DNA from: Clostridiales bacterium
GTDB lineage: Bacteria; Bacillota; Clostridia; Oscillospirales; Acutalibacteraceae
Direction of reading: 5' to 3'
Assembly (NCBI GenBank): GCA_012524025.1
Contig: JAAYSC010000085.1
Location: 1 to 58,400 of the forward strand
DNA length: 58,400 nt
Part shown: one piece after another, positions 24,182 to 56,392 of the stretch
Layout: each line of letters begins with the position of its first letter
How positions within the stretch are numbered: the stretch's first letter is position 1
The notes under the pieces: model-generated
Database searches by the model: none
What the model was told of the DNA's origin: nothing
What the model saw: the letters and a program-made list of their open reading frames with translations, nothing else
Translations under genes and position numbers: made by a program

Positions 24182-24225
24182 AGGGGCACCTCCTAATTTA
24201 TTGTGACTGTCGCGCCGGGCGCGTT

Positions 24226-24928: not shown

Positions 24929-25603
24929 TTAAGTTTCAACGCTTATGTGTAAAAATCCACCTGTTTCGCCGACACGAACCTTGTCGGCCGTGTAGGCCAC
25001 AACCTTGTAGGTACATTCATACTCCCCTTGTTTTAGCCATTTTTGCAGTTTATCCCTATAGATATACTCACCCGGCTTTATCATGGGGGACTTATAAATT
25101 TGTTTGCTGTCGCTTTTGGTGTAAAAACTGAAAACAAGGTTGAACTCACAGCTTTCCGGGTTTTCCAACATAATGTCACCCGAGCCGTAGCGGCTTTCAA
25201 AAACTATGTTTTTATTTATACGGTAGCGCACTTCGCCCTTGGGGACATTTTTAACATCATCATAGCCTTCGCTTATGGGCAGGCTACCCGTGCTGACCTT
25301 GCCGCGGGCAGTAAAAACCCCCTGGACCATATCAAAAAAACCGAGTTTGGCCAAAGCAAATCCCGAAAGCATCAAGGCCAAGCAAAGCACCAGAGCAATT
25401 AAAAGATTTAAAAGTTTTTTCGAATCTTTAAGAACAAACTTTACTTTAGGCTTTTCATAAGATTTTTCAAGCTTTTCCCCTTTGGCCGAGGGATTTTCTT
25501 GTTTTTGCTTATCCGGCCTTGGCATTTGGCGGGCTTGTTTTTTGGCTTTTTTGTTTTTCTTATTCGCTTGTGGCTTCTTGGGTTTGCGCTTGGCCATATT
25601 CAT
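24929..25603 (-). CDS. Single-pass membrane protein: Lys-rich cytosolic N-terminus, TM, extracellular domain related to that of the next gene
   Basis: N-terminus MAKRKPKKPQANKKNKKAKKQ; TM LLNLLIALVLCLALMLSGFALAKLGFF; ectodomain ENPESCEFNLVFSFYTKSDSKQIYKSPMIKPGEYIYRDKLQKWLKQGEYECTYKVVAYTADKVRVGETGGFLHISVE. Confidence 0.75.
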   Translation of the reverse strand: MNMAKRKPKKPQANKKNKKAKKQARQMPRPDKQKQENPSAKGEKLEKSYEKPKVKFVLKDSKKLLNLLIALVLCLALMLSGFALAKLGFFDMVQGVFTARGKVSTGSLPISEGYDDVKNVPKGEVRYRINKNIVFESRYGSGDIMLENPESCEFNLVFSFYTKSDSKQIYKSPMIKPGEYIYRDKLQKWLKQGEYECTYKVVAYTADKVRVGETGGFLHISVET

Positions 25604-27614
25604 TACCTATCTCTAAATTTAATTTCAAATATCTGCCCCCCACATATTCATAAGTTTGGGGGTTATAGGCGGCAACAATAAGCATTAAACTATGATTGCC
25701 GTAATCCATATCCATGGCTAAATTTGACAATTTGATGATCGGCAAATAATAGCCGGGCTTTATGCCTGCCGAGCGGTAGAGCACTTTATTGTCCTTGCCC
25801 ACAACACTTATCAAAAAGTCACAGTCATTGCTTTGGGGGTTACCCAAAATAATGGGCAAGGGGCTGTGCCATTCTTCAACAACAAGGTTAGGATGGGCGA
25901 AAAAGTCGAAGCCCCTGTCACCTTTTGAAGGCGTGTTTCTGACCATTTTTTCTTGCTCTTCGGGCGTGGCTTCAATGGTGTCGACTACCGTGAGGCTTTC
26001 GGTGACACCTCGGTATTGAGGTTTGGTTGTAGCCGGTATTTTATAAGAAAAAAGTTTAATGCCCGCAAAGGCCAAGGCCGCAATCAAGAGCAGGCTTATA
26101 AGTAGCTTAAACACTAACCTTGCCCAACCGGGTATTTTATTAAAACTTTGGCGCGCGCCGCTTGTGAACTTGTTTATGATTAATGCGCCCCCCATTAAAA
26201 GCGATCTTGATTTTTCACGCTTTTCTTTTTTCTTTTTCTTTGACTTCTCTTTTTTAACTTTTTTAGTCTTTTTAGCCTTAAGGGGTTTTTCTTTTATTTG
26301 GGGTTCTTGGTCCGGGGTCTCTTGGACTATGGCGGGTATTTCTTCCGGCATAGCAGGCGCTTCTTGGGCTTGCGCCTCTTCTGCCGGCTCCTGCTCCGGT
26401 TCTTGTTCCGGCTCTTGCTCCGGCTCTTCTTCAGGTTTTAGAATTGGCTCTTCCCGGGATTCGGCCGGGGCTTCTTCTTGCTCTTGGGTTTTCTTGCTTT
26501 GAGGGATTTCTTCCCCATCTTCGGGCAAATCCGCAAGGGCTGCCAGGGGGTCACCCCACAGGCCACGCATTTCTTGTGCTTCTTCCTCTTCAAGCGGCTC
26601 TTCTTGCGCCTGTGTTTTTTTGCCTTTGTAAGCTGCGGCCGTGCTTATGGGTGTTTCTTTGTTAAGGGCACGGTTGACAAGGTCGGCTATGCCGCTGACT
26701 TGCGGGCTCAAGGGGTCCGGCTCATAAGCTTGGGCTGCTTCTTGTTTTTCTTGCGGGACTTCTTGCGCTTGCTTGGCTTTTAGTTCCTCTTCCAGCTTTT
26801 TGGCTATATACTCAAGCTCTTCTTCCAAGCTGACCGGGCTGCCGGTCTCTTCTTCTTGCGCTTGCTCTGCCGCCTCTTGAGGCGGGGGGCTCTCTTGAGC
26901 CGGAAGGCTTTCTTGAATCGGAGGGCTCTCTTGAGGTTTTTCTTCCTCTTGGATTTCTTCTTCTTGAGTTTGCTTTATTTGTGTTTGAATTTCTTTATCG
27001 CTATCGGCCTTGGCCGCTGTTTCATCTTTTTCTTCTTTTATTTCTTCGCCTTGTTGGGAATCACTTTTGACCGAAAGGGGCCGGCTTGCCCTTTCGGTCT
27101 CTTTTTTGCCCTTTTGGGTTTCTTTTTCTTTTTTCTCGGCAGGCGGTTTGGCCTTGCTTTTTTTACGGGCCTGCCTTTTTTCTTCCTTGGCTCGCTCTTT
27201 GGCTTGTTTTTTTTCTTCTTTCTTTTGCTCTTTAGCCTGCTTGCGTTCTTCTTTTTCCCTTATTTTTTCTTCTTCCGCTTCTTGTGCTTCGCGGGCTTGG
27301 CGCTTGCGCTCAAGTTCTAAAAGCCGTTTTTCTTCGCGCGCGGCCTTATCGGCCTGTTTGGCTTTTTTGTCTCGCTCTCTTTTCTTGTCGATTTTAGCCT
27401 GTTTTTTTGCTCTGGCTTTCTCACGCTTTTCTTTTTCTTTCAATGCTTTGGCAGCTGCCCTGTCCTTGGCCGCTTTTTGCTTGGCATCAATCTTTTCTTT
27501 ACCTTGTGCGGCTCTTTTTTGGGCAACTGCCTCTTTGGCCGCCAAGGCGGCCCGCTCTTTATTCTTTTTTATATTTTTCTTTTTAGTTGCGGCTTTTCTT
27601 TTCTTTTTTGCCAT
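25560..27614 (-). CDS. Single-pass membrane protein with a very long charged cytosolic tail (K/R/E block, then Q/E/P block, then Lys block), TM and extracellular domain
   Basis: KREKARAKKQAKIDKKRERDKKAKQADKAAREEK...; EEEPEQEPEQEPEQEPAEE; KKTKKVKKEKSKKKKKEKREKSRS; TM LVFKLLISLLLIAALAFAGIKLF; ectodomain LGNPQSNDCDFLISVVGKDNKVLYRSAGIKPGYYLPIIKLS. ATG at 27614 is preferred over the tracked GTG at 27626. Confidence 0.75.
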   Translation of the reverse strand: MAKKKRKAATKKKNIKKNKERAALAAKEAVAQKRAAQGKEKIDAKQKAAKDRAAAKALKEKEKREKARAKKQAKIDKKRERDKKAKQADKAAREEKRLLELERKRQAREAQEAEEEKIREKEERKQAKEQKKEEKKQAKERAKEEKRQARKKSKAKPPAEKKEKETQKGKKETERASRPLSVKSDSQQGEEIKEEKDETAAKADSDKEIQTQIKQTQEEEIQEEEKPQESPPIQESLPAQESPPPQEAAEQAQEEETGSPVSLEEELEYIAKKLEEELKAKQAQEVPQEKQEAAQAYEPDPLSPQVSGIADLVNRALNKETPISTAAAYKGKKTQAQEEPLEEEEAQEMRGLWGDPLAALADLPEDGEEIPQSKKTQEQEEAPAESREEPILKPEEEPEQEPEQEPEQEPAEEAQAQEAPAMPEEIPAIVQETPDQEPQIKEKPLKAKKTKKVKKEKSKKKKKEKREKSRSLLMGGALIINKFTSGARQSFNKIPGWARLVFKLLISLLLIAALAFAGIKLFSYKIPATTKPQYRGVTESLTVVDTIEATPEEQEKMVRNTPSKGDRGFDFFAHPNLVVEEWHSPLPIILGNPQSNDCDFLISVVGKDNKVLYRSAGIKPGYYLPIIKLSNLAMDMDYGNHSLMLIVAAYNPQTYEYVGGRYLKLNLEIGNEYGQAQTQEATSE

Positions 27615-27631
27615 GGTTCTCCCCACTCCCC

Positions 27632-28288
27632 TTAATTATCTTCCCAGGGTAACTTTTCAATTCCCCAGAACTGCGGGAAGCGGTTAACCTGAACAGCTTC
27701 AACAATAAAGGCAACTTTTAAGCTTACACTGCTATCTTTGGGCCTTACTCCGTCAAAAGCTGCAAAGTCAAAGCCTTCTATAATAAATTCATGCTTGGTA
27801 TAGACTGAATTGCTTGCGGTGAGGCCGCCTAATTTTTGGGCCAGATAAACACTGGAATCTTCCGCCCTGTTGTCAAACCAGGAATTTTCTTGGCCTAAAC
27901 TTGGAATATTATAGGGTATGGCCTTGTTGACATGGAGGACTTTGCCGTTTGAATCCAGCCAACTTTCAACCATCTTAACTCGGATATAATGGGCTCCCCT
28001 GCCTTTTTGGTGAATATCGACTCGCAACTTGTCAATTTTATTTTCGGCGTCCTTGTCGAAATCAATGCTTATGGACCCGTCTGCATTGCGATATTGTTCG
28101 GGGTTTGTAGAACCGTCAAAATAAACTTCGGCATAGGCGTCAAAGTTGGCCAAGAACATGTTGCGGGATAAAATAGGCATATCTTCAACCAAGAGCCAAG
28201 TCAGGGTGCCGGCAACCAAAACGACGGCCAAGGCTGCAAGCACCAAACCTAAAACAAGAGGCCGCTTGCCTGATTTAGTTTTTTTCAT
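27632..28288 (-). CDS. SipW/TasA-type exported protein
   Basis: Signal-like N-terminus KRPLVLGLVLAALAVVLVAGTLTWLLVEDMP; ~218 aa; sits in the SipW gene cluster. Confidence 0.6.
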   Translation of the reverse strand: MKKTKSGKRPLVLGLVLAALAVVLVAGTLTWLLVEDMPILSRNMFLANFDAYAEVYFDGSTNPEQYRNADGSISIDFDKDAENKIDKLRVDIHQKGRGAHYIRVKMVESWLDSNGKVLHVNKAIPYNIPSLGQENSWFDNRAEDSSVYLAQKLGGLTASNSVYTKHEFIIEGFDFAAFDGVRPKDSSVSLKVAFIVEAVQVNRFPQFWGIEKLPWEDN

Positions 28289-28311
28289 GATAGCCGCCTC
28301 CTTTACTCAAA

Positions 28312-29052
28312 TTAGGGTATTACCGGATACCAACCGTCGGAGTCCAAGCCGGCGATGAAGACAATCTCAACACCTTCATAGCTATAGTGGTCATCTACAA
28401 CACTTGTATCTTCAAGTGTTTCGCCGACAATATTATAGTCAACCCAAAAGGCCAGATGGATTTGAAGTTTGGTTTTGGGCGGGACGACAACATAGTTACC
28501 TTGGTCGGCTGCTACGCCGGGGGCCCCGTGGTTATAAATTTCCAAGGCTTCATAAGTAGCGGTGGCGTCACCGTCTGTAATTATATTGGCATCAAGGCCG
28601 GAATATTGGCCCTTGCGGGTTCTGATAATATCCATAACGCTTGTTGAACGGTTGGGGTCTATGGCATCGGCTGCCGCATCATAGTCACTGTCGGAATAGA
28701 GGAAATAATAAAGCTCATCCGCATTGGCCGGCTTTGTGATTTCAACATAAACACGAGCAGGCAGACTACCGGTATTTTCCGCCTCTATGGTTTCAATATG
28801 CAGGGCTCGGTCAAATTCAATTTCTTCCGGGTCTTCAAGCTTGGTGGCTGCCGGGATGACAATATCGGCCTCTTCAATATAAGTATCCGGCTCAAGTTCT
28901 AATGTACCGATAACAAATTTATTTTCGCCCGAATAAAAGCTTACATAAAACCAGGCGGCTGTTGGGGGCAAAACAGCAAAGTAGGAAATGCAAAGCGCAA
29001 AAATCACAGCCGTTACAGCCGTTAGTATTTTTTTAAGCTTGTTTTTTGCCAT
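28312..29052 (-). CDS. SipW-dependent-type exported protein (TasA/camelysin-like)
   Basis: N-terminus ILTAVTAVIFALCISYFAVLPPTAAWFYVSFYSGENKFVIGTLELE; start overlaps the end of the upstream SipW gene by 20 nt. Confidence 0.7.
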   Translation of the reverse strand: MAKNKLKKILTAVTAVIFALCISYFAVLPPTAAWFYVSFYSGENKFVIGTLELEPDTYIEEADIVIPAATKLEDPEEIEFDRALHIETIEAENTGSLPARVYVEITKPANADELYYFLYSDSDYDAAADAIDPNRSTSVMDIIRTRKGQYSGLDANIITDGDATATYEALEIYNHGAPGVAADQGNYVVVPPKTKLQIHLAFWVDYNIVGETLEDTSVVDDHYSYEGVEIVFIAGLDSDGWYPVIP

Positions 29053-29557
29053 TTTTCTTACCCCCTTTTCTGTCCTTATAAAGTGATAGAAGCGAACTGA
29101 TTAATATTAGAGCGGCAACCGAACTTGCCAAAAGGGCAAGAAAAACTTTGCTGCCGATAGTTTCCGAGAGATAACCTAACTTTGGAAGGCTGAAAGCCAC
29201 CTTACCAGCCACTAAACTTATATCCGTGGGCATGGGGTCTTCGCTTTGGTTTTTGTCACCCTTGGTGTAGACCTTGGTTTTTTTACTGTCAAAGCGGGTT
29301 ATTCTGTGGGTGAAGGCCCTGTCCCCTTTGGGGGAGACAACCGTAATTATGTCGCCGACTTGGAGTTCTTCGACCTCGGTAAACCTTATAAAAACCGCGT
29401 CACCTTTTAGGATTTCAGGTTCCATGGAAGGGCTGATTACAGCAAAGCCCTTGAGGCCGCTGAAGTGCAGGTAGCCGACGAAACCGGTTAAGGCCAGGGT
29501 TATAAGTATAAAGATAGCCAGTAAGACATTTAGAAAGCGGTTAAGACTTTTTGACAT
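29033..29557 (-). CDS. SipW-type (ER-like Ser/His) signal peptidase I
   Basis: GFAVISPSMEPEILKGDAVFI, GDIITVVSPKGDRAFTHRITRF, TKGDKNQSEDP. His in the position of the bacterial Lys. Start overlaps the preceding stop (TAATG). Confidence 0.9.
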   Translation of the reverse strand: MSKSLNRFLNVLLAIFILITLALTGFVGYLHFSGLKGFAVISPSMEPEILKGDAVFIRFTEVEELQVGDIITVVSPKGDRAFTHRITRFDSKKTKVYTKGDKNQSEDPMPTDISLVAGKVAFSLPKLGYLSETIGSKVFLALLASSVAALILISSLLSLYKDRKGGKKNGKKQA

Positions 29558-30222
29558 TATGGGTTCTCCGAGGGATTTATATCCTCCCAAGTTCCGTAAT
29601 AGGCCTGCTTGGCTTCGAAGATTATGTTGACTTCAACTTCCTCACCTTCATAAATGTTGCCGGCTTCCAGGTCTTGGCTGTAGCGGATAGACTCAATAAG
29701 TTCTACTTCAAGTTCCGGAGCCCCGGGTTCATAAGCAGAGTCGCTGGGCGGCATGGGATCTCCGCCCGGTCTGTAGTACCAATAACCGTTTTCAAATTCC
29801 CAGTCTAAGGGATTGGTAAAAACTATTTCAAAATCTTCATTTTGTGTGGGGCTGTAAGTAACAAGGGTTTCGTTTTTATTTAAGTCGATATGGGTATAAT
29901 CAAGTTTTATGCGGAGCTCGGTTTCAACCGATGAATGATTGTAGAGGACTATGGGTGACTGGCGCCAAATTTCGTTTTCCGTGTCAATTTCGCTATAGGC
30001 TATATTGGCACCGGGGGCTATGTAATCAATCTCTTGGGTTTCGTCATGGAAGAGGGGGCGAATATCCAAACCGCCTACGATATACATGTCAAAATAGGAG
30101 CCGCTTACCTTTTGGCTCTTATCTTCTCCCTGCTGTGAAAACCAGGCAAGGGACATACTTAAAACAAGGGCAAAGGTAGCTAACACCGCTATGCTTATTA
30201 GAAAAAACTTTCTTTTCTTCAT
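29557..30222 (-). CDS. SipW-dependent-type exported protein (TasA-like)
   Basis: Signal peptide KKRKFFLISIAVLATFALVLSMSLAWFSQQGEDKSQ; directly coupled to the SipW gene. Confidence 0.75.
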   Translation of the reverse strand: MKKRKFFLISIAVLATFALVLSMSLAWFSQQGEDKSQKVSGSYFDMYIVGGLDIRPLFHDETQEIDYIAPGANIAYSEIDTENEIWRQSPIVLYNHSSVETELRIKLDYTHIDLNKNETLVTYSPTQNEDFEIVFTNPLDWEFENGYWYYRPGGDPMPPSDSAYEPGAPELEVELIESIRYSQDLEAGNIYEGEEVEVNIIFEAKQAYYGTWEDINPSENP

Positions 30223-30246
30223 ACAAAACTCCGGACTGATTTAGGC

Positions 30247-30948
30247 TTATTCTTCATCGGGTAATTTGCCGCTTTTAATGGCTTCAATATCTTCCTTGAG
30301 GTCTTCTATCCGCTTTTCTAATTCTGCCTGCCTGAGCCTGGCTTCTTCTTGCCGGGGCGGGTGCTTGGTTTTCTTTTTCTTGCCGGGGGCATCGTCCTCG
30401 TCTTTGGAGTACCAAATTTTTCTGACATTGGCTAATTCGAATACCAGCACTCCCATCAGGGGCAGAATTAAAAGAAAGAAAATAACGGTTCGATTTTTAA
30501 ACTTATCAAAAACAGTGCCCAAGGAAGGGATGCCGGCAACCACCTTTCCGATTATCCTATCTTCATAAACCGGGTGGCGGTCGTCAATGGGGTTGTTGTC
30601 CCCCCTGGTGGTGAAGTAGATTCCCCTTTGCGGGTCTTCCCCTCTTGCCATTATGCGGTGAGTGTTGGGCCGGTCAAAAATCACGGGGTCATCGGAATAA
30701 AAGCTGATTACATCGCCAACCTGCAGTTTAGCGGCATCCGTCTTGAGGGATACAACCACACTGCCAACGGGGTAGACTGGGTCCATACTTTCCGTCGACA
30801 CACTTAAAAAACTGTAACCCATAAAACTGGGTACCCCTTTTCCCCAGTTGAAAATTACCGTGAGAAAAACAATAAGGCTTAAAATAAAAACAGAACCTAT
30901 TATAATGCTGGCGGCTAATGAAGCCGCTTTTTTAATACGAAACAACAA
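30247..30948 (-). CDS. SipW-type signal peptidase I (second)
   Basis: FLSVSTESMDPVYPVGSVVVS, GDVISFYSDDPVIFDRPNTHRIM, TTRGDNNPIDD; N-terminal TM and C-terminal TM plus charged tail. Confidence 0.9.
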   Translation of the reverse strand: MLFRIKKAASLAASIIIGSVFILSLIVFLTVIFNWGKGVPSFMGYSFLSVSTESMDPVYPVGSVVVSLKTDAAKLQVGDVISFYSDDPVIFDRPNTHRIMARGEDPQRGIYFTTRGDNNPIDDRHPVYEDRIIGKVVAGIPSLGTVFDKFKNRTVIFFLLILPLMGVLVFELANVRKIWYSKDEDDAPGKKKKTKHPPRQEEARLRQAELEKRIEDLKEDIEAIKSGKLPDEE

Positions 30949-30968
30949 GCTGAATTTTTTCCCTCAAA

Positions 30969-31646
30969 TTATTCTAATGTGATATTTCCTACAAAAAGCT
31001 CAAAATCTTTTTCATCAAAAGTAGTGTGAGGGCCTTCTGACTTAAGGCCTAAAGTGTAAAACAAATCAATTGAGGTGTTATAGTATTCGCTTAGATCTAA
31101 GCTATAAACCACAATGTTCGATGCAAGGATGGGGTACCCCACAAGCTCGTAAAGATTTGTGTAAAGGGGTGAGGCTATGTCGTCTAATAAATCATTCCCA
31201 TCCTTAACCTCAAGGCTCACACTAAACTTTTCAAGAAAGGCCTTTTCATCTGCCGGAACTCCGTTACCGTTTAGGGTAACATTGCCAAAGAACAATTTTG
31301 CACCACTTAAATTTCCCGTAGTAACTTCGATTTTGAAAAATCGCTTTTGATTTGGAGCTAAATTCGAAAGATCAATCTGATTTTCTACAACAGGTTGCCA
31401 GTCTTCATCTTCCCCATCATCTAAAACACCGTTTCGGTTTAGGTCAATAGCTTCCAGTATCCTGTATCCAAAGCCCGTTTGCTCATCTACATTGCCAAAG
31501 ATTTTATCTACAGTTACCAAGGAACCGACACTAAACCATGCAACGGTAACAAAAACTAAAACAAGGGTAGTGGCAACCAAGGACACGGCAGACTTAATCA
31601 AGCGCAGCTTGGCGGGTGTCATTTGCTTTTTAACTTTTGTGCCCAT
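30969..31646 (-). CDS. SipW-dependent-type exported protein with EF-hand-like Ca2+ loop
   Basis: Signal peptide LRLIKSAVSLVATTLVLVFVTVAWFSVGSLV and DLNRNGVLDDGE loop at 31410-31445. Confidence 0.72.
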   Translation of the reverse strand: MGTKVKKQMTPAKLRLIKSAVSLVATTLVLVFVTVAWFSVGSLVTVDKIFGNVDEQTGFGYRILEAIDLNRNGVLDDGEDEDWQPVVENQIDLSNLAPNQKRFFKIEVTTGNLSGAKLFFGNVTLNGNGVPADEKAFLEKFSVSLEVKDGNDLLDDIASPLYTNLYELVGYPILASNIVVYSLDLSEYYNTSIDLFYTLGLKSEGPHTTFDEKDFELFVGNITLE

Positions 31647-31682
31647 GCGGCCACCTCCTTTCGTCTCGGTAAGAATCTGTTT

Positions 31683-34600
31683 CTATTTTAAGTTATCAAT
31701 TAGGCTGGACCACATTATGTAAACGCCCCAGGGTTCATCTTTAACAATATAGTAGTGGATTACAACTTCTTCGGTAGCTGCTTCAAGCTCAATGTAGGCA
31801 CCGTAGCCGCCTTCGGTTTCTTTGACTTCAACCTTGTCTAAAGCAGAGCCCAAGAGATAGTTGCCGTCTTGGTCTTGAGCCGTGACCATGTACTTATAGC
31901 CGGCCGGTAAGCTGCCTAGGGCGAAGATGCCGCCGGAAGACACTACCGCATCGTCAATTTCGCTTGCCGTGGCATTTGCATTGGTGAAGATGTCGGCCCC
32001 GAAGTTGGCGGGTTTGCCACCGAAGTAGTGGACATTCTTAATTGACACAATTACATTTTCACTGCTCATGCCCATTTCGCCCGTGTCATTGTGCAGAGTG
32101 TAAGAAATTTCTATAACCCTGTTGATTCTGGGTCTGGCGTATCTGTAGGGCTGGTTTTCCAAAGGCAACTCAAGCATTATGTTAACACCGGCATAAATGT
32201 CATCCGGGGCAACGGGGCCGTCAATGATATAGGTAAAGGGGTCTGTGTTAGTCCTGTCTAAATAGATTTCGGTGTTTTGTGGTTCTTCGCTCAAGCCCAA
32301 TTCCTCACCGTTTACCCTTCTGGGGAAGGAAAGTTCAAGGAAGTTGGCTGTGGAACCTGCGGAAGAGCCCAAGGAATAATCAATAAGTGTCGTAGCAAAT
32401 TCAAGACCTGTTATAAACTCATCGCTTGCGCCTTGGTCATCAAAGCCTGTGTCATATAGCCAGTCGTAAGAGAGTTCGGCAGAGAATTTAGCGGCTGCAT
32501 TTTCATCGGATACCAAGCTGATTTGCTTGTCAAACTCACAGTCTTCTATAGTAGCATCTTCACCGACAAAGCCGGCTATGTTGCCGATATTAGTAGCCTC
32601 ATCGGGTCTTCTGCCGCCGTCTGCAAGTTTTTCGTCCACAACCATGCCGGCATAGACGGATTCGTCTATTGTGGCACCGTTGTCAATTATAGCCACCAGG
32701 CCGCCGATTGTAGTTTCATTCACACCTTGAACATAGGCTGTTGAGAAGCCGTCAGTCAGGCTTGCGTCGGCACCTTCAAGTACACCGACCAGGCCGCCTA
32801 TTAGGGCGTTTTCATCACTATTGCTTGATACAAATTTGCCGGAAGTAATTACGGATTCAAGTTTGGTGCCGGGGCCGGCATAGGCCACAAGGCCGCCGAC
32901 AAAGTCCGCATCGGACCGGATTTCACCCACGGCGTAGGAATTGCGAATCTCCGCACCCTCTGCCTTGCCGACCAGGAGGGCCGTGTAGGTCTTGGCATCC
33001 GGGTCGTCTTCTTCACCGTGCATGGTATCCGCCGTATTGTTTTTGGCACCCAAGAGACCAAGGTTTTTAATGACTGCACCCTCACCTGCATAGCCGAAGA
33101 GGGCCGAGTTGTTATCAATGGTCAAATCTTTAATCACATGCTTGCCGCCGTCAAGTTTACCCATGAAGGATTCGATGGCTACCGGTGGTGCCGTGCCTGT
33201 CTCATTATCATGGTCGGCATAGTCTAAATCATCTGTCAAAATATAATTATTATCCTTGCCCGGGCCGTAGTAGGCTAAAGAGTTGAAACTTTCTACCGAA
33301 TCAATTTCATAGGGCCTGTCTTCACTGCCGTCGCCGCCGTCGAAGTTGGGGTTTTGCTTGCCGGTTTCAACTTCAATGTCAAGTAAGAGGTCATCGTGAA
33401 GACCGTCGCCTAAGTCTAAGACCAGTTTGGCGGTAAGGGTGGCTGTGCCGGGGGCGGCGCCGGTCGCACCGGCTGCCGTGATTACGGAAGCATCTGAAGT
33501 ATCCCAGCTAAGGTTATTCAAGTAGGCTTCACCCGTGCTAAAGGCAGAAAGAGGGTTGGCGGATGAAAGGGCCAGGGTATCAACATACTGTGAATATTTT
33601 GTAATTATAGTGGCAGAGCCGAGCCTGGAATAGGCTATGAGGAGCCTGTGTTTGAGGGGTATGTAGTCCCCTGCCATTACATATTCATCGTCTAATTCTA
33701 AAATCGCCTTGAGTTGTGGGTAGGCATCGGGCTGCACAGCGGGGTCGCCGCCGTTGGCCTTGACAAACTTATCCTTGGTCGGGCAGTTTTCATGGAAACA
33801 TTTGAGGCTGATGACATCTTCCGTCAGGGAAGCGTCTGCCAAAATATTATAGGTGTCGGAGCCTGCCAGGTTCTTGTCGGCAAAGGCATCTGAAAGTTCC
33901 CCGCCTTGGTCCTTGGCCACAAAGATGCCTTCTTGGTCTGTAAGGTTGGTGGGTTTTACTCTGCCCGCCGAATAGGCATATTTAATCGAACCCGCATTGG
34001 CGCCGGCAAAACCGCCGATTAAGTCGCCGCCGCTGACCTTGGTGCGGGTGTGGGCGGCTTCAATTTCACCCGTAGCGGTGTTGACTGCTACCAGGCCGCC
34101 GACTGTGTCGGCACCCTCTTGGGCGTCAACCGAACCTAAGCTGAAGGAGTTTTCAATAAAACCTCCGTTTTGGCCAACCAGGCCGCCGGCTATGGCATCT
34201 TCACCCAAATCTTGAGTAGAAACAACAGAGCCGGAAACATAGGCGGAAGTTTCAATTGTGCCGCCCGCCAAGTTCTTGGCTGCAAGCCCGCCCACATATT
34301 GCCTGCCTTCAATGTCGGCTGCAACTGTGGAGTTGATTAGAGTGCCCAAGTTGTTGGCTACCAAGCCTGCAACTAAGTCACCGCCCTTAACAGAGCCGGA
34401 CCTGATCATAATACCGTCAAGCAGGCCGCCGGTATTGTTATGGCGAACAAGGGCAGTGCCATTGTCTTCTTCATCAGTGCCTTGGGAGTTTATGGTTAAA
34501 TTTTCAAAAGCAACATCCATAACTTCCGATTGGTTTGAAATACCGAAGATAAATTCACGGTCGGTGTTGAAGTTCTTGACAGCATAGTCCCTGCCGTCAA

Positions 34601-48030: not shown

Positions 48031-50478
48031 TTAACCTTGGTCTTCCTGGTTTGCTTGGTCATTATTTTCTTCGTAAAGTTTAAGTGCTTCTTCTTCCGCT
48101 TGTTTTAGGCGGGCCGCTTCTAACTCTTGCTTGCGCAGCAGCTCTTCTTTTTCACGGCGGATGCGTTCTTCCAATAATTGTTCTTCTTGAAGTTGGCGGG
48201 CTGCCAATTCTTGGCGTTCTTTGGCAAAGCGTTCTTTTTCACGCGCTTTGGCAAGTTGCCTTTGCCGCCTTTCTTCTTGGCGTTGGCGTTCCCGGGCTTC
48301 TTTGGCGGCTTGCGCTTCTTTGGCCTTTTGGGCTGCTATGCGCTCACGCTCTTTTTGCCTTTCGCGGGCCAAGCGTTCCCTTTCAAGCTGCCTTTCTTTT
48401 TCACGAGTTAGGCGCTCTTTTTCACGCTGCCTTTCTCTTATAGCTTTTTGGCGTTGGCGCTCCCTTTCTCTTTCAAGGGCCAGGCGTTGGCGTTCTTTTT
48501 CTTTTTCACGGGCTATGCGCTCTTTTTCGCGCTGCTTTTCTTTTTCACGAGCCAGGCGCTGCTTTTCACGCTCTTTGGCCTTGGCGGCCTTTTCACGCTC
48601 ACGCTCCCTTTCTTTTTCACGGGCTATGCGTTGGCGCTCTTTTTCTTTTTCGCGGGCTATGCGCTCTTTTTCGCGCTGTTTTTCCCTTTCACGGGCCAGG
48701 CGTTGGCGTTCGCGCTCTTTTTCCCTTGCGGCTTTTTCACGCTCACGCTGTTTTTCCCTTTCGCGGGCCTTGCGTTGGCGTTCTTTTTCTTTTTCACGAG
48801 CTATGCGCTCTTTTTCACGCTCTTTGGCTTTTTGCTTGGCTATGCGCTCGCGTTCACGCTGCTTGGCCAAACGCTCTTTTTCACGCTCTTTGGCTTTTTG
48901 CTTGGCTATGCGCTCGCGTTCACGCTGCTTGGCCAAGCGTTCCTTTTCCTGCCGGCGTTTTCTTGCTTCCAACTCACGCCTGCGCTTGGCTTCTTGGCGT
49001 TCTTTTTCAAGCAAGGCGGCCTTATGGGCCTTTTCACGGGCAAGGGCACTGTCAATAAGTGCTTCCATGGCTCGCCTGGCTTTAAGTTCTTTTTCAAGCA
49101 AGGCGGCCTTATGGGCCTTTTCACGGGCAAGGGCACTGTCAATAAGTGCTTCCATGGCTCGCCTGGCTTTAAGTTCTTTTTCACGCTGCTTTTTGCGGGC
49201 TTCCATTTGGCGGCGGCGTTCCCTTTCGCGCTTTTCGCGTTCTTTTTGCTTTTCGCGGGCGATACGGGCGCGTTCGCGCTCTTTTCTGCGCCTTTCCATT
49301 TCGCGGCGGCGCGCTTCTTCCTTACGAATCTTTTCCAAAATGGCGTCTTTGCGGGTCTTTTCACGGGCCAAGGCATTGTCAATAGCCTTGTTGATACGCT
49401 CTTCGCCCTTGATTTTCTTCTTACCGGCACGCTTGAGCTCGTCCACAAAAATCCGCCTGATTTCGACTTCTTCCATGTCATAATCCATGACCAGTTCCTC
49501 GGCCAGGCGCTTGAGCATTTTAGGCTTGAGCTTGCGGGTCCGCCTTTTTCTTTCAACAATTTCTTCGGCTTGGGGGGTATTGTTTTTAAGCAAAACATAA
49601 TTGAGGCCTATCATGCGATAGAGGTCGTTTTTGTATTCTTCGCTGACCATTTCGTCGCTTTCATGGGCCACAATTTCATAGCCGACCTCATTATAGGAAT
49701 TGATAAATTGCCAGAGGTTGAGGCAGGCCCTAAAATTAGGGTCTTTCATGATAACATTTGTGCGCATGATGGGCGGGCGCACAGGGGTGGAGTGCTGCAA
49801 TTCCGACATGAAGGCCGAAGCGGCAAATTCACCTATAACTTGTTTTATGTAACCGATGCGATCGAAGGCGTTGAAGTTTTTGTCCGCATCGTCGCCGACA
49901 GCCAAAGAAGTGGATTGGCTGGAAATTTCAAGCTTGTATTTAATTTTTTCTTCACCGCGGCTAATGTCACTTTCCATCTTAAGCGAAGAGAGGTTTTCGT
50001 CGTCCTTAATTTTAAAGAGAACATTGTAGCGGGTGTCAATAAAATGCATTAACTGCCTTATAAGGGTGAAGATAAAACGGTTTTCATAAATTTCGTAGCT
50101 TTCTTCACGGAAAACATTGAGAATTGAGCTGGGGGTAACATTGTCGTCATCAACCCGGGCTATGAGGTTGGTGTGTTGGGCTAAATGGCGAACCGATTCG
50201 GCCGTGATTTTACGGGCACGCTCAATGGGGACAATCTCTTCTTCCTGAACGATAAATTTACGGGGGTTGCGGACAATATTATCAAGCGGGATGATACATG
50301 CTTCGATGGCATCAACCCAGGCAAGGTCAATTTTCTTTTCCAAATACCTATTGAAAAAGGAAATTTTATTAGAGCCGCGTTCAATTGAGTCAATGAGTTC
50401 TTCATAAAAATCCCCTTGACCCATGAGCCCCAATATATGCTGTTTATAATCTTCGTAGAGGTCGGAGTACTTACTCAT
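48031..50478 (-). CDS. DUF2357/McrC-like N-terminal domain fused to a ~456-residue K/E/R-rich helix
   Basis: N-terminal ~300 aa: ESYEIYENRFIFTLIRQLMHFIDTRYNVLF and STPVRPPIMRTNVIMKDPNFRACLNLWQFIN, resembling DUF2357 partners of McrB-like ATPases. Residues 359-814 contain no Gly or Pro and are nearly all K/R/E/Q/A/L/I. Confidence 0.65.
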   Translation of the reverse strand: MSKYSDLYEDYKQHILGLMGQGDFYEELIDSIERGSNKISFFNRYLEKKIDLAWVDAIEACIIPLDNIVRNPRKFIVQEEEIVPIERARKITAESVRHLAQHTNLIARVDDDNVTPSSILNVFREESYEIYENRFIFTLIRQLMHFIDTRYNVLFKIKDDENLSSLKMESDISRGEEKIKYKLEISSQSTSLAVGDDADKNFNAFDRIGYIKQVIGEFAASAFMSELQHSTPVRPPIMRTNVIMKDPNFRACLNLWQFINSYNEVGYEIVAHESDEMVSEEYKNDLYRMIGLNYVLLKNNTPQAEEIVERKRRTRKLKPKMLKRLAEELVMDYDMEEVEIRRIFVDELKRAGKKKIKGEERINKAIDNALAREKTRKDAILEKIRKEEARRREMERRRKERERARIAREKQKEREKRERERRRQMEARKKQREKELKARRAMEALIDSALAREKAHKAALLEKELKARRAMEALIDSALAREKAHKAALLEKERQEAKRRRELEARKRRQEKERLAKQRERERIAKQKAKEREKERLAKQRERERIAKQKAKEREKERIAREKEKERQRKAREREKQREREKAAREKERERQRLAREREKQREKERIAREKEKERQRIAREKEREREREKAAKAKEREKQRLAREKEKQREKERIAREKEKERQRLALERERERQRQKAIRERQREKERLTREKERQLERERLARERQKERERIAAQKAKEAQAAKEARERQRQEERRQRQLAKAREKERFAKERQELAARQLQEEQLLEERIRREKEELLRKQELEAARLKQAEEEALKLYEENNDQANQEDQG
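48037..49404 (-). repeat. KER-type low-complexity region (predicted single alpha-helix or coiled coil)
   Basis: KEREKERLAKQRERERIAKQKAKEREKERIAREKEKERQRKAREREKQ... with imperfect 6-11-aa periodicity. Confidence 0.9.
48999..49172 (-). repeat. Exact 87-bp tandem duplication (29 aa: ELKARRAMEALIDSALAREKAHKAALLEK x2)
   Basis: Copy 1 48999-49085, copy 2 49086-49172, identical by eye, with a partial third start at 49173. Confidence 0.92.
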
Positions 50479-50507
50479 CTGTATAGTCCCCTTTTAGTCA
50501 CTTAAAA

Positions 50508-52061
50508 TCAGATCAGCTTTTGCAGCCTTTCAAGATATTCTTTGGATTCGCCCATATTGCTTCTGCCGAAATGCCTGTTGAGGTAGGTTATAAGGCCGCC
50601 GATTTCATCACGGATGAAGGAAAGGTTGAGGGCTTCAAACTTACGCAGGATTTTGTGGCAGAGAATAAAGTCCAATCCGTCAATTTCGGTGCCGCCGCAG
50701 CCCACATAGGCCGGAATGAAGTCTTCAAGTTGCTTAACAATACGGTTACCGAAAGCCAGGCGGAAGTGCTCGATAACATAGTCGTCAAGTTCCGCCAATT
50801 TGCGGATGTTTTCTTCACTGACCTTGTGTTTGATTTTGCATTCTTCAAACATGGCTTCAAGGTGTTTGTAGTTTAAGGTTAGGTGGTCGGTCCAGGGGGC
50901 ATCGAAATATTTACCTTTAGTATTAATATCAATTGGAATGGCACGGTCGTAGACCTTGTCCGTCACGGCGAAGGTGGAGTCGTCATTGTTGATGGTGCCT
51001 ATATACCACATGTTTTCAGGCAGCCTTAACTTGCCGTCAAAGAGGTTTTTGGGGTCTGTGGGCCAAACCGAGGGCACCAGGGAGACAACCCATTCATCAC
51101 GGCTGGGCATTTCCAAGATGGAAAGCAGTTCCGCAAAGTAATATTCAACACGAGCTATATTCATTTCGTCCATTATGGTGACGAAAACATCGTCCTTGTA
51201 GGTGGCTTCATACATTTTGCGGAGCAATTCCGTTTCGTTAAAACGCTTGGTAAATTCGTTAAAGTAGCCGAAGAGTTCCGTACGGTCACGCCAGGAAGGT
51301 TGGACGGAGCAGATGGTGGCATCGTTTTGTAAAAATTTACCGAAGGCATAGGGCAGGGATGTTTTACCCGTACCGGAAATACCTTGCAAAATAATAAGTC
51401 GGGTGGTTGAAAAGGCAGCTAAAAAGAGGCGGATTATGCGCGGTTCATAATAAAGACCCATGCGTGAACAGGCAAAGTTGCGGAACATGTCGCAAATTTC
51501 CGGCAGAGTGATGTCGTTATTATAAACGGGCGGCTCATAATCTTCGATTTCAAGGTCGACTTGGGTGAGCTTGTAAAAACGGCTGTAGTCGTCGGCTTCC
51601 ATATCCACATCGTCAGACGACGCTTCGCCCTCTTCCCCTTCTTCCGGAATTTCTTCAAAGGGGCTTTCGCCGGGTTTAAGGCCCAGTTGGGAAACCTTCA
51701 TGGCCAGAATTTTCTCTTTTTCCGTCGTCAGGCGGATAACATCGCGGTTGAGGGTTGCAACTTCATTGAGCAGCTCTTCTTGGTCCACAACTGTTTTCCT
51801 GAAGCGCACATATTTTCGCAGGAGCATGTAGAGAAGTGAGGCAAGGCCTACCAAGACAGTCAGCAAAACAAGTAGGGCCAGGATTGCCACTATCCATTCC
51901 ACGACACCAAAGTCGCCCGACCAAGCTTTAAAAATCGCAATGTACTTGGGGATGTCAAAAATATTCTTAATGCCTATGCCAATCCCTTTAATAATCCCCC
52001 AGACGCCTTTTACAAAGAACTGGGATAGGAATTGTTCCAGAAATTTAATTATTGCTCCCAT
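50508..52061 (-). CDS. Membrane-anchored McrB-like AAA+ ATPase
   Basis: N-terminal TM VVEWIVAILALLVLLTVLVGLASLLYMLLRKYV; Walker A GISGTGKT; Walker B FVTIMDEMN; sensor/arginine region WYIGTINNDDSTFAVTDKVYDRAIPI (McrB-type layout). Confidence 0.88.
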   Translation of the reverse strand: MGAIIKFLEQFLSQFFVKGVWGIIKGIGIGIKNIFDIPKYIAIFKAWSGDFGVVEWIVAILALLVLLTVLVGLASLLYMLLRKYVRFRKTVVDQEELLNEVATLNRDVIRLTTEKEKILAMKVSQLGLKPGESPFEEIPEEGEEGEASSDDVDMEADDYSRFYKLTQVDLEIEDYEPPVYNNDITLPEICDMFRNFACSRMGLYYEPRIIRLFLAAFSTTRLIILQGISGTGKTSLPYAFGKFLQNDATICSVQPSWRDRTELFGYFNEFTKRFNETELLRKMYEATYKDDVFVTIMDEMNIARVEYYFAELLSILEMPSRDEWVVSLVPSVWPTDPKNLFDGKLRLPENMWYIGTINNDDSTFAVTDKVYDRAIPIDINTKGKYFDAPWTDHLTLNYKHLEAMFEECKIKHKVSEENIRKLAELDDYVIEHFRLAFGNRIVKQLEDFIPAYVGCGGTEIDGLDFILCHKILRKFEALNLSFIRDEIGGLITYLNRHFGRSNMGESKEYLERLQKLI

Positions 52062-52156
52062 TGTCTTGCCACCTTTTCGCTGTATTTTGTAGTTTATTCA
52101 AACTTCCCGGGAATCGGATTGCACTGCACTTGGGAAGAACTTGCACATAGTTTATT

Positions 52157-53380
52157 TTAGTCTTCTTGGGCTTCTTCTTCATCGCTTTCGGTTTCTTCGT
52201 CTTCGTTTACTTCAGCCTCTTCGTCGTCACTTTCGGCTTCTTCTTCCTCGATTTCGACTTCTTCGTCGTCAGCTTCGGCCTTTTCGTCGTCGCTTTCGGT
52301 TTCTTCTTCCTCGGTTTCGATTTCTTCGTCGTCAGCTTCGGCTTCTTCAGCCTCTTCTTCGTCGCTTTCGACTTCTTCGTCATCAGCTTCGGTTGCTTCT
52401 TCCTCGGCTTCTATTTCTTCTTTGGCTTCGACTTCTTCCTCGGTTTCGATTTCTTCGTCGTCAGCTTCGGCCTTTTCGTCGTCGGTTTCGGTTTCTACTT
52501 CGTCGGCTTCGGGCTCTTCCTCGTCGGTTTCGGTTTCCACTTCGTCAGCTTCGGTTGCTACCCCGTCTGCTACAGCTTTTTCAGCGATTTCTTCTTCTGC
52601 CGGTGCCGCCGGGGGCTCATTCAGGTTTTTTTTTGCCTCTTCTTCGGCTTCTTCTTTAGCTTTTTGTTGGGCTATATATTCTTCAACAGCCTTTTGTTTT
52701 TCACGCTCCAACTCTTCTGCGGCAAGGGCTGCGGCTTTTTCGGCCTCTTCCTTGGCTTTTTGTTGGGCTATGTATTCTTCAATGGCTTTTTGTTTTTCGG
52801 CTTCAAGGTCTGCTGTGGCTTCTTCAAGGGCTTCTTCTTTCTTGCTTTCACCTAGGAGACCTATGAATTTGATAAGTTGGAAAACGAACATAAGTGCCAA
52901 AGGTAAAATCAAGACAAAGAAGATACCTTTTTGCGTCTTCATAAGGTCCATAAGAGTGCCAAGGTAAGGAACACGCACCCCGTTCCAAACACCGACGACA
53001 TTTGAAAACGAGATTATATCAGGGTCAGGGGCGGGAGAATTGTCACCACGGGTAATGTAATAGTTGTATTCATTATGAGGTTCAACTTCGATTATTCTGT
53101 GAGTGTTATAAGCTTTCTGGTTGCCGATAAGAAAGTAATATGTTACAACTTCGCCAACCTTTAAATCGTTTAAATCTTCAGGTTTGAAGATGATAATCAT
53201 ATCCCCTTTTTTCATCGCCGGTTCCATGGAGTCTGATTGCACTGTGAGAGGACTATAGCCGAAGATGTTTGGAATACCATCGTCTTTCTGAGACAACAAC
53301 ACAAGTGTCATAACAGATAAGGATAAAACAAGAAAAAAGACTATAAAAATGTCCCCAAGTACCCTTAATACCTTTTTCAA
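52157..53380 (-). CDS. SipW-type signal peptidase I (third) with a long acidic cytosolic tail
   Basis: LTVQSDSMEPAMKKGDMIIIF, VTYYFLIGNQKAYNTHRIIEV, TRGDNSPAPDP; TM GIFFVLILPLALMFVFQLIKFIG; then coiled and Glu/Asp tail. TTG start preceded by GGGGGA. Confidence 0.88.
   Translation of the reverse strand: MKKVLRVLGDIFIVFFLVLSLSVMTLVLLSQKDDGIPNIFGYSPLTVQSDSMEPAMKKGDMIIIFKPEDLNDLKVGEVVTYYFLIGNQKAYNTHRIIEVEPHNEYNYYITRGDNSPAPDPDIISFSNVVGVWNGVRVPYLGTLMDLMKTQKGIFFVLILPLALMFVFQLIKFIGLLGESKKEEALEEATADLEAEKQKAIEEYIAQQKAKEEAEKAAALAAEELEREKQKAVEEYIAQQKAKEEAEEEAKKNLNEPPAAPAEEEIAEKAVADGVATEADEVETETDEEEPEADEVETETDDEKAEADDEEIETEEEVEAKEEIEAEEEATEADDEEVESDEEEAEEAEADDEEIETEEEETESDDEKAEADDEEVEIEEEEAESDDEEAEVNEDEETESDEEEAQED
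52160..52624 (-). repeat. Glu/Asp-rich repeat tail (locally ~63-bp/21-aa period)
   Basis: ESDDEKAEADDEEVEIEEEEA-type units; only four Lys and no Arg in the tail. Confidence 0.85.
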
Positions 53381-53521
53381 ATGAATATTCCCCCATCAAG
53401 CAGCATAAAGCCATCTATAGCCGCATCATAATTGTCCAGGATCCGTTTAAATCTTCAGAGCTAAAAGACTTAAACCGAGCCTAAAAAATCAAGTATTAAG
53501 GATTCTTTCCCGGCTTTTCCT

Positions 53522-53554
53522 CCCCTGTGAGCAAATTATAAATGCTCACAGGGG
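53522..53554. other. Perfect 12-bp inverted repeat in the pilin-sipW intergenic region
   Basis: CCCCTGTGAGCA (53522-53533) / TGCTCACAGGGG (53543-53554), 9-nt loop. Confidence 0.85.
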
Positions 53555-53641
53555 GGCTCGCACCGGTCTAAGCCTTAGTGCGAATCTGATTAGCTAACCG
53601 GATTCAAACTTTTGCTTTAAATTAGTGAGGAGATTGGTTTC

Positions 53642-53676
53642 ATTCTGCTTCCGGGTAGCTTGCCCGGAAGCAGAAT
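53642..53676 (-). terminator. Stem-loop immediately downstream of the major pilin-like gene
   Basis: Perfect 14-bp stem ATTCTGCTTCCGGG/CCCGGAAGCAGAAT, 7-nt loop, starting 8 nt past the stop. It lacks a minus-strand U-tract, so it may be an mRNA-stabilising or attenuating hairpin rather than a full terminator. Confidence 0.6.
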
Positions 53677-53684
53677 TTTACTGA

Positions 53685-54443
53685 CTACTGTTTAACAATT
53701 GTTAAAACCAACGAAGAAGTTGAGGGTAAGACAACACCACGGCAGGCAGCGTCTTGGCCTTCAGCCCAGACATAGACATTAATGGGATATACAGTGCCTT
53801 CTGCCATTTCCAGCTGGATTGTGCCCGTTGCCTGTGTGGCAGTCTGGACAGAACCGAGGGCGCCTGCAGTAGCTTCCGAAGCGTCAATGATGTCATTTGT
53901 GTTTCCATCGGTTGCTATGAGTGAAGGGTCATCAATAGGATAGTAGGAACGACCTGCATTGGCGTTCAGAAGCAACCTGTTTGTGTCCTGAACAACACCG
54001 CCGTAAACAAAGGCTACAGTTGAATTAAATGTGGGGGTGATATCTACCGTTGTGGCAGTGGTGGCTTTAATGAAAACTGTGTACTTGACGAAGCCGGAAT
54101 TTGCATCGCCCGTTGCCTTGAAAACCGTGTCGGTTATTGAACCGGCAATAAACTGATTCTTCGAAAGGGTGGCCGACACCGGAATGAGGGTGGTCGGCAA
54201 AAGGTTGGTTGTAACCGCTTCTAAGTCCGCCCGAGAGATTTGAGTTTTCCATGTATCTCCCACTCCGGTTGCGGAAATCAGAATCGAGCCGTCAGAGTTT
54301 GAAACAGTAGCTTCAATCTGGTCAACTCCAACAGCGTTGCCCGATGAAAACCACGCAAATGTTGCCGAAGAGAGCGAAATGGCTGATACAATCAGCATAG
54401 CCAAAGCAGACATCAGCGCGCGTTTTCTACTTGCTTTTTTCAT
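53685..54443 (-). CDS. Major pilin-like/TasA-like SipW-type substrate with EF-hand-like loop
   Basis: Strong RBS (AGGAGGAAAAGCTTATG); MKKASRKRALMSALAMLIVSAISLSSATFAWFSSGNAVGVDQIEA; DGNTNDIIDASE loop; Thr/Ser/Val-rich body. Confidence 0.78.
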   Translation of the reverse strand: MKKASRKRALMSALAMLIVSAISLSSATFAWFSSGNAVGVDQIEATVSNSDGSILISATGVGDTWKTQISRADLEAVTTNLLPTTLIPVSATLSKNQFIAGSITDTVFKATGDANSGFVKYTVFIKATTATTVDITPTFNSTVAFVYGGVVQDTNRLLLNANAGRSYYPIDDPSLIATDGNTNDIIDASEATAGALGSVQTATQATGTIQLEMAEGTVYPINVYVWAEGQDAACRGVVLPSTSSLVLTIVKQ

Positions 54444-54578
54444 AAGCTTTTCCTCCTGTTTTATTTTTGATTTACCAAAATCATGTGTTAAATATATCCA
54501 TAAAATGTCACAAATACCGGGGTTCGCCTGCATTGCCGGAAAGATGATAAAGAACAATCTGCCTCTCCTCTAAGCAGC

Positions 54579-55358
54579 TCATTCTTGATTCATACTTTCT
54601 TGAAGAATTTTGAAGTTCATTGACAAGGTAATTGCTCCCCCCATAATATCGTTGACACATTCAGGATCCCAGCCTTCGAGCCACAGAACTATAGTGTACC
54701 TATCCACCTCCCCTGTTTTAAAGTCTTTATTTCTAATTTCCATAACTTTTGAACTGTCAACAAAAAACTCATCAATGGCGAAAGTAGCCCTATCCGCACG
54801 AGGGTTTTTGGGCGTTTTGCCATAGACGGTATAGACACCGTTACGGAAGACCATAACTCTAACAGCCTCGTCCACACCTTTGACCACAGAGTTGATATCG
54901 ATGCTACCATAGTAACCAACATTCTCCTCGCCGGTGTTTCTGATATAAAATGTGTATGCGATGTAATCTTTTCCGTTGTGCACGCCGTCAACCTTATCCA
55001 ACTCATCGTAAGATTTATATGTCGGGAAGCCTTCGGCATAATATTCCTTGTTATTCGGGTCGTTTAAAAGCCACTCTTGAGTAATATTCCACATGTTTTC
55101 CAAGTGGGTCCCTTGAAGAAATATTGATGGTTCTTCAAAATCTTTGTTTTCCGAAATAGATAAACCATACTTAAAAGCATCGGGATCAAGATTTATGGTA
55201 AAGCGCCCCGCCTTGTTGAGAACAGATGCGCCCACAAAAACAATAGACATAAGTAAAAGCAAGAGTATAATTATTAACAAAATCAGCCGCATGATTCTGC
55301 GGCGCCTGTTAACTCTTCTTGCGTTTATTCTGACTTCGCGAGCTTCGGTTCCGGCCAA
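54579..55358 (-). CDS. Membrane-anchored TasA-like protein
   Basis: REVRINARRVNRRRRIMRLILLIIILLLLLMSIVFVGASVLNKAGRFTINLDPDAFKYGLSISENKDF... ; single N-terminal TM, extracellular beta-rich domain. Confidence 0.65.
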   Translation of the reverse strand: MAGTEAREVRINARRVNRRRRIMRLILLIIILLLLLMSIVFVGASVLNKAGRFTINLDPDAFKYGLSISENKDFEEPSIFLQGTHLENMWNITQEWLLNDPNNKEYYAEGFPTYKSYDELDKVDGVHNGKDYIAYTFYIRNTGEENVGYYGSIDINSVVKGVDEAVRVMVFRNGVYTVYGKTPKNPRADRATFAIDEFFVDSSKVMEIRNKDFKTGEVDRYTIVLWLEGWDPECVNDIMGGAITLSMNFKILQESMNQE

Positions 55359-55390
55359 GCTATAGCCCCCCTTTCTTAAATTTTATGATA

Positions 55391-56251
55391 TTAGCTGACG
55401 CGTATGGAGCGTTCTTTCCTGGGGCCGCCGTAGGCCTTGCCGTACATTTGGTCGACCCCCATTTTTTTGAGAAGTTCCGCAAGCTCTTTGTTGTCAACAC
55501 CGCCTATGCGGGTTTTGGCACCGATCTTTTTGGCAAAGTCGATTATGCCTTGGAGCATGTCTTGCGAGCGTTCATTTTCTTGGATGCCGTCTAACAAAGA
55601 TTTGTTGAGGCTGATATAGTCAACATCGTATTGGCCCAGGTGTGAAAGTGAGGTGTATTCAACACCGAAATCATCAATGGAAATAAGGAAGCCGTCTTCA
55701 CGCAATTGCTTTATGTTTTTGAGAATATTTTCCTTATCTTTTTCAAGGATACTTTCGTTCAAATTAAAGCAAAACTTTTCGGGGCTGACGCCCTTTTCGT
55801 TAACCATTTTTAGCATCTGGCCGGCGAAGTAGTGGCGCGACATATGTTTGACGGCAATGTCAAGTATAAGGCAGTTGATGTCGGCCGAGCGTTTTTCGCA
55901 ACGCAAGATGGCGTCGCAACCTTCTTCGACAGCCCATTTGCCCAGCTCGAAAATACGGTTGGATTTTTGAGCAACGGGGATAAAAGAATGGGGTTGCAAG
56001 ACGCCCATTTTGGGGTCATTAATGCGCAAGCTTGTGTAGTAGTTGATAGCCATGTTGAGGGAAACATCAAAGACGGGGGTGTAGTACATTTCGATAGCAC
56101 GAAGGTTGCTCTTTCTTTTTTTGGCCGCCGGCTTTTTTGCGGCAGGTTTTTTAGCCGTGCTTTGTTGAGCTTGAGCGGCGTCGCCCGCAGGCTGCTCACC
56201 GGGGTTTGCCCCTTGGGCCTTTGTTGCGGTGGTTTTCTTGATATCTTCCAT
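55391..56251 (-). CDS. Degenerate (probably non-catalytic) EAL-domain protein with Lys/Ala/Pro-rich N-terminus
   Basis: MYYTPVFDVSLNMAINYYTSLRINDPKMGVLQPHSFIPVAQKSNRIFELGKWAVEEGC...SIDDFGVEYTSLSHLGQYDVDYISLNKSLL...IGGVDNKELAELLKKMGVDQMYGKAYGGP. The EAL fold is recognisable, but the EAL Glu, the DYxKxD Lys and the EGVE Glu are lost. Confidence 0.82.
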   Translation of the reverse strand: MEDIKKTTATKAQGANPGEQPAGDAAQAQQSTAKKPAAKKPAAKKRKSNLRAIEMYYTPVFDVSLNMAINYYTSLRINDPKMGVLQPHSFIPVAQKSNRIFELGKWAVEEGCDAILRCEKRSADINCLILDIAVKHMSRHYFAGQMLKMVNEKGVSPEKFCFNLNESILEKDKENILKNIKQLREDGFLISIDDFGVEYTSLSHLGQYDVDYISLNKSLLDGIQENERSQDMLQGIIDFAKKIGAKTRIGGVDNKELAELLKKMGVDQMYGKAYGGPRKERSIRVS

Positions 56252-56281
56252 TTAGGTTTCCTCCAATATAGCTGTGTTAAA

Positions 56282-56337
56282 GCGGCAAAATCAGCCGCAA
56301 AATCGGGTAGATTTACAGGGCATTTCACATGCGTGAA
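56282..56337 (-). promoter_or_regulatory. Structured 5' leader of the EAL gene (two small inverted repeats)
   Basis: GCGGC-AAAATCA-GCCGC (56282-56298) and TTCAC-ATGC-GTGAA (56324-56337). Confidence 0.4.
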
Positions 56338-56363
56338 CATAGAACTTGCCATAGTACAAGGAT

Positions 56364-56392
56364 ATATTATCACCTTGTATGTGAAAAGTCAA
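56364..56392 (-). promoter_or_regulatory. Sigma-A-type promoter of the SipW/GLUG locus
   Basis: Minus-strand TTGACT (56387-56392), 17-nt spacer, TAATAT (56364-56369), ~112 nt upstream of the EAL gene start. Confidence 0.75.

Follow-up and report, generated by a model that had tools for sequence, protein, structure and literature searches.

A conserved Clostridia operon of the CoCoPALM group combining a membrane-anchored McrB-like/DUF2357 pair with SipW-type peptidases, TasA-like subunits and a giant adhesin

The association of a membrane McrB-like AAA+ protein with a DUF2357 protein was given the name CoCoPALM in Bell et al. (2024, PMC11090510), whose main text devotes two sentences to it, announces a separate publication and describes the transmembrane (TM)/coil region fused to the GTPase as homologous to FtsB. 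No follow-up publication on CoCoPALM was found in the literature searched. The window analysed here (58,400 nucleotides of contig JAAYSC010000085.1, which is contig 73 of a 2.1 Mb, 97% complete assembly of a gut-type Clostridia genome) contains an operon of 15 genes that, judged by its sequence, belongs to this named, mechanistically undescribed group: it has the NxD McrB-like GTPase domain with fused TM and coil segments, the DUF2357-coil partner and the linked signal peptidases. The first-pass annotation of this DNA had presented the locus as a candidate new system, a claim that falls with the earlier naming. The main text of the CoCoPALM paper, however, mentions neither EAL, c-di-GMP (cyclic di-GMP), TasA-like or giant-adhesin genes nor a SipW tail motif or a SipW-less sister clade, and no description of the locus anatomy was found in the literature searched. 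New here are the nuclease-free state of 26 DUF2357 partners, the SipW tail motif, the riboswitches together with the degenerate EAL protein, the WG end of the adhesin and the SipW-less sister clade.

Three other described systems share parts of this locus. CoCoNuTs (PMC11090510) have the NxD McrB-like GTPase with a coil and the DUF2357 partner. To these they add nuclease domains, either active or inactivated, as well as RNA-linked domains, whereas in the present locus the pair has a membrane anchor, lacks a nuclease and stands beside envelope genes. E. coli McrBC shares the McrB-type AAA+ domain (PDB 6ut6, E 1e-7) and the DUF2357 partner, but it has an NxxD motif, a PD-(D/E)XK nuclease and a DNA-binding domain and lacks a membrane anchor. 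The Bacillus tapA-sipW-tasA and sipW-calY operons likewise place a Ser-His-Asp SipW-type peptidase beside substrates with AWF signals and are tentatively linked to our locus by a modest TasA-like fold match; they contain a single SipW, in contrast to three here, and no AAA/DUF2357 pair, EAL protein or giant adhesin.

The locus places a membrane-anchored NxD McrB-type P-loop protein and a DUF2357-coil protein without a detectable nuclease in one conserved operon, which also encodes SipW-type peptidases, AWF-signal proteins that are likely their substrates, a TM-anchored TasA-like protein and a giant adhesin. We consider that the operon is probably a CoCoPALM unit making a surface fibre or adhesin layer, and that its pair most likely acts as a non-nucleolytic membrane GTPase scaffold organising SipW-dependent export of surface fibres. 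The first-pass annotation had proposed that the AAA+/DUF2357 pair was repurposed as a motor or scaffold for a surface layer; the pair without detectable nuclease and the conserved locus with SipW, TasA-like subunits and adhesin stand, the novelty and a strict link to SipW do not, and the motor or scaffold role itself is what we infer. The features are the following.

56364..56392, minus strand: promoter-like site, TTGACT-17-TAATAT with TG before the -10, 5' of the operon; from a consensus scan only, which gave no more than a modest excess over shuffles
55391..56251, minus strand: degenerate EAL-domain protein, head gene (PF00563, 157 bits; motif table against relatives)
54579..55358, minus strand: TM-anchored TasA-like protein (profile match to the pil1 family; AlphaFold model; match to 8aur)
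53685..54557, minus strand: pilin-like exported subunit (pil1), AWF signal, likely start at ATG 54443 (alignment A3; low-confidence model)
52157..53380, minus strand: SipW-type signal peptidase with an acidic cytosolic tail (NF046067, 117 bits; TIGR02228, 98 bits; Ser-His-Asp; tail motif)
50508..52061, minus strand: predicted McrB-like AAA+ GTPase, membrane-anchored, N-terminal TM and coil, NxD motif NNDD
48031..50478, minus strand: DUF2357 (residues ~1-345) followed by a K/E/R-rich (KER) coil of ~470 residues, without nuclease (PF09823, 39 bits)
31683..47900, minus strand: exported GLUG-type giant adhesin, 5405 aa, C-terminal EPWGVYIMWSSL (PF07581, 44.8 bits; PF05342, 35.1 bits)
30969..31646, minus strand: exported protein, AWF signal, one EF-hand-type loop (orthologues without the loop)
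30247..30948, minus strand: SipW-type signal peptidase without the tail motif (TIGR02228, 74.5 bits)
29557..30222, minus strand: exported protein 1, AWF signal
29033..29590, minus strand: SipW-type signal peptidase, short, without the tail motif (TIGR02228, 80.8 bits)
28312..29052, minus strand: exported protein 2, AWF signal
27632..28288, minus strand: exported protein 3, single N-terminal TM (orthologues in three loci are 38-40% identical)
25560..27626, minus strand: TM protein with a long charged N-terminal extension (orthologue at the same place in five loci)
24929..25603, minus strand: TM protein that ends the operon, with a basic N-terminus (orthologues in three loci are 36-40% identical)

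As read from the open reading frames (ORFs), the 15 genes span 24929-56251 (~31 kb) of the minus strand. The collinear layout with many short gaps reported in the first-pass annotation was reproduced: all 15 ORFs were found at the same coordinates and in the same order, and at 11 of the 14 junctions the genes overlap or lie at most 36 nt apart (10/14 if pil1 begins at the internal ATG 54443), the longer gaps measuring 304, 95 and 130 nt. Most of its labels were also borne out, namely the degenerate EAL protein (PF00563, catalytic motifs lost), the McrB-like AAA+ protein (NCBIfam PRK11331; PDB 6ut6), the DUF2357 domain, the three SipW/ER-type signal peptidases (NCBIfam TIGR02228/NF046067) and the GLUG adhesin (PF07581). 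It had given the last two TM proteins charged tails; the charged stretch is in fact N-terminal, before the TM helix. Its EF-hand protein does have the loop DLNRNGVLDDGE in the window copy, but the loop is missing from five orthologues, so it was rejected as the defining feature of that gene.

The arrangement is a real, conserved operon. The search with the AAA protein gave 34 loci in named genomes, where the front half is conserved, and many more genomes besides; the named relatives are Clostridia metagenome-assembled genomes labelled Ruminococcaceae, Oscillospiraceae, Christensenellaceae or Clostridia. In all, the front half (EAL, TasA-like TM, pilin-like, SipW, AAA+, DUF2357-coil and giant adhesin) was found at about 40 Clostridia loci. 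The order in relatives runs EAL, TasA-like TM protein, one or two pilin-like genes, SipW, AAA and DUF2357-coil, with the giant adhesin after the DUF2357-coil gene in the near relatives and with SipW placed between the AAA and DUF2357 genes in Christensenellaceae. The iterated AAA profile drew in outgroup McrB proteins and the counts rest on the strict A1 profile. In a sample of 391 genomes of the class, members score at least 349 bits (non-truncated matches) and McrB-like proteins 107-116 bits, leaving a clean gap. Among 399 genomes spread over the phylum none was seen to carry the family except the window's own.

The back half has the same gene order in five genomes (loci L012, L013, L044, L017 and L028): an EF-like exported protein, SipW, an additional SipW that is not in the window, exported protein 1 and SipW, then exported proteins 2 and 3, the charged TM protein and the last TM protein (in 4/5), followed by unrelated genes. 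Since these five relatives keep the back half and then turn to unrelated genes, the left boundary in the window is the true end of the unit; the orthologue of the last TM protein ends the operon in L164, L166, L167 and L168. A chance neighbourhood of separate operons was rejected, as synteny is seen in both halves. Two further loci sets may be recorded here: L144 (contig 14 of the incomplete genome G032), only 4.5 kb long and carrying genes for SipW, a TasA-like and a pilin-like protein, is probably this operon in truncated form, and the single genome G199 has two AAA loci (L109, L107) and 11 SipW matches.

The AAA protein family is distinguished from its McrB-like outgroup by an N-terminal hydrophobic helix, present in 67/67 members and in 0/19 outgroup proteins; a coil-like segment, read from the alignment, follows the helix. 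The NxD motif has the form GT(A/I)N-x-D-D (xDD after the sensor Asn) in all 67 members with a readable motif. A Pfam scan of AAA residues 1-137 gave no match to FtsB/DivIC. The full-length KER and SipW proteins gave no or sub-threshold Pfam matches because of coil and tail bias; the KER protein was therefore trimmed, after which PF09823 matched with 39 bits (cutoff 23.3), and SipW was scored with NCBIfam. The PD-(D/E)XK nuclease was detected in two outgroup McrC proteins and in 0/26 DUF2357 proteins of the family, the shortest of which (360-413 aa) leave little room for it.

The link to SipW is close in most of the loci. The host genome has three SipW genes, all of them inside this locus, and in six further genomes the SipW matches all share the contig of the AAA gene and stand within some 30 kb of one another. 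SipW is present in 9/9 AAA-positive relatives vs 25/51 others (hypergeometric P 0.0035). The neighbourhood check that the first-pass annotation had proposed for the pair gave, in the SipW-linked clade, a same-strand SipW in all loci with adequate flank, usually adjoining the AAA gene. The catalytic Ser-His-Asp residues, taken from alignment columns, are present. The AAA-adjacent SipW carries a C-terminal cytosolic tail motif, K(R/K)(R/K)AIEEYLAxQ, and the tail of the window protein (52157..53380) has two copies of EKQKA(I/V)EEYIAQQKAKEEA. A relaxed pattern, composed after the sequences were seen, matched 46/51 AAA-adjacent SipW (shuffled-tail expectation 0.76), 11/51 other SipW in these loci and 0/26 SipW from AAA-less genomes. 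Because the pattern is post hoc and the comparison is uncorrected for phylogeny, we regard the motif as a strong lead towards a contact with AAA/DUF2357, short of proof. In L002, L014 and L056 the AAA-adjacent SipW falls into two ORFs, of which the second bears the tail motif, and the DNA contains an X base; an error of the assembly is likely.

The TM protein is a homologue of the pilin-like protein (hhalign, 98.8% probability). The first-pass label "TasA-like" for the former was upheld in part: its AlphaFold model (predicted local distance difference test, pLDDT, 87) finds the TasA fibre 8aur in Foldseek at rank 2 with probability 0.99, but with an E of 1.9e-3 and a TM-score of 0.3; an archaeal bundling pilus stands at rank 17, and the scores are modest. 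One member of the pilin-like alignment A3 matched the SipW-dependent-signal model TIGR04088 at E 0.009, and the pil1 and TMTas profiles had no match among PDB sequences. A WG(V/I/L) C-terminal end is common to the 13 giant adhesins compared, including that of the window (31683-31720), and may possibly be an anchoring or sorting signal. The adhesins differ greatly in length, with an end of the type WG(V/I/L)xxx(W/F) within the last residues. The N-terminal part of the window adhesin (35901-47900) matches the N-terminal region of M26 IgA1 proteases (PF05342, 35.1 bits), with no peptidase domain reported.

Several relatives connect the operon with c-di-GMP. Riboswitches of the c-di-GMP-I class lie directly 5' of the operon at L102:2438-2512, L106:6371-6456 and L115:193-278, and before the TasA-like gene at L113:14374-14468. 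The head EAL gene of the window has lost its catalytic motifs (YYTSLR in place of EALxR, FNLNES at the ExxE region and IGGVDN in place of EGVE), as it has in most relatives; intact EAL proteins occur in six sister loci, with GGDEF also in 3/4 of those scanned. GGDEF was matched twice in the host genome, one of these matches lying at the left edge of the window (33-356).

These elements can be arranged into a mechanism. The McrB-like protein would form a membrane-bound GTPase ring with its activity set by DUF2357, as that of McrB is by McrC, and the coil rod together with the cytosolic EEYLA tail of SipW would keep the peptidase at the ring. Subunits exported by Sec would be cut by SipW at the ring and would form a polymer on the TasA-like protein as its TM-anchored base, and the giant adhesin would join the fibre via its C-terminal WG end. 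Expression would be under c-di-GMP control, by the riboswitch in some relatives and perhaps by the degenerate EAL protein in the window. In this scheme the McrB/DUF2357 pair would act as scaffold or timing device rather than as restriction enzyme. The whole chain, in which the GTPase ring with DUF2357-coil recruits SipW by the EEYLA tail and, under the control of c-di-GMP, drives or times how a TasA-type fibre and the giant adhesin are assembled, is put forward tentatively. If it is correct, a restriction-type motor has been turned into an envelope assembly machine, and a McrB-type GTPase would build surface structures rather than attack nucleic acid. The locus supplies a nearly complete part list for CoCoPALM, which has a name and no described mechanism, and offers three direct handles in the SipW tail motif, the WG end of the adhesin and the c-di-GMP control. 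To our knowledge, surface fibres of gut Clostridia are almost unstudied.

Some of the results weigh against a SipW-bound fibre machine. A sister clade, supported in the tree (G398 contig 16, G411, G415, G252 and G433), has AAA/DUF2357 without a nearby SipW, and in G269, which has both AAA and DUF2357, SipW was not found within 20 kb; the entire assemblies of G411 and G269 gave no SipW match, and G398 holds both the SipW-linked and the SipW-less locus types. The occurrence of the pair without SipW/TasA genes, which the first-pass annotation had named as evidence against its own proposal, was therefore found in part, and the pair is not strictly bound to SipW. Both E-value and TM-score make the TasA match of the TM protein a weak one, confidence in the pil1 model is low, the tail comparison carries the phylogenetic limit given above, and a riboswitch searched for in the leader of the window's own operon was not found. 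The sister-clade order is AAA, DUF2357-coil, AAA (tandem loci L116, L117, L118, L119 and L120); since the loci that were read have large TM surface proteins downstream, two of them with a transglutaminase core (L116 and L118), an envelope role still fits this clade. L117 has a tryptophan/aspartate-rich repeat protein.

The same clade, with large TM surface proteins in place of SipW substrates, would suit another function of the pair, that of a chaperone or extraction machine which, instead of serving as a SipW scaffold, would unfold mis-inserted fibre precursors at the membrane or clear them away, and the AAA+ fold and membrane anchoring are in keeping with it. The conserved tail motif on the AAA-adjacent SipW points, however, to a SipW contact, and no protease or substrate-processing partner was seen; we hold this explanation to be unlikely. 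A defence function, with the membrane McrB/DUF2357 pair sensing infection and the envelope genes as output or cargo, might be expected from the homologues, which are mostly restriction components according to PMC11090510, and the AAA protein does match the PADLOC candidate model PDC-M26A with 130 bits. Outgroup McrB proteins match this model better (156-173 bits), so it is a general McrB model, and the assignment based on it was rejected. With a nuclease absent in 26/26 DUF2357 partners, export and surface genes as neighbours and control by c-di-GMP riboswitches, defence appears very improbable. There is just a slim chance, too, that the degenerate EAL, AAA and DUF2357 proteins form a regulatory unit that controls the expression or activity of the fibre genes and has no part in assembly. 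The EAL head gene and the riboswitches speak for such a unit, as does the second, regulatory role reported for SipW in B. subtilis (Terra et al. 2012, as cited in PMC13082335), but no DNA-binding domain was found and the membrane anchor is universal in the AAA family.

Outside both ends of the operon the genes are of metabolic type. Genes for GFO/IDH/MocA oxidoreductases lie near both ends, at 23093-24412 and 56605-57585.

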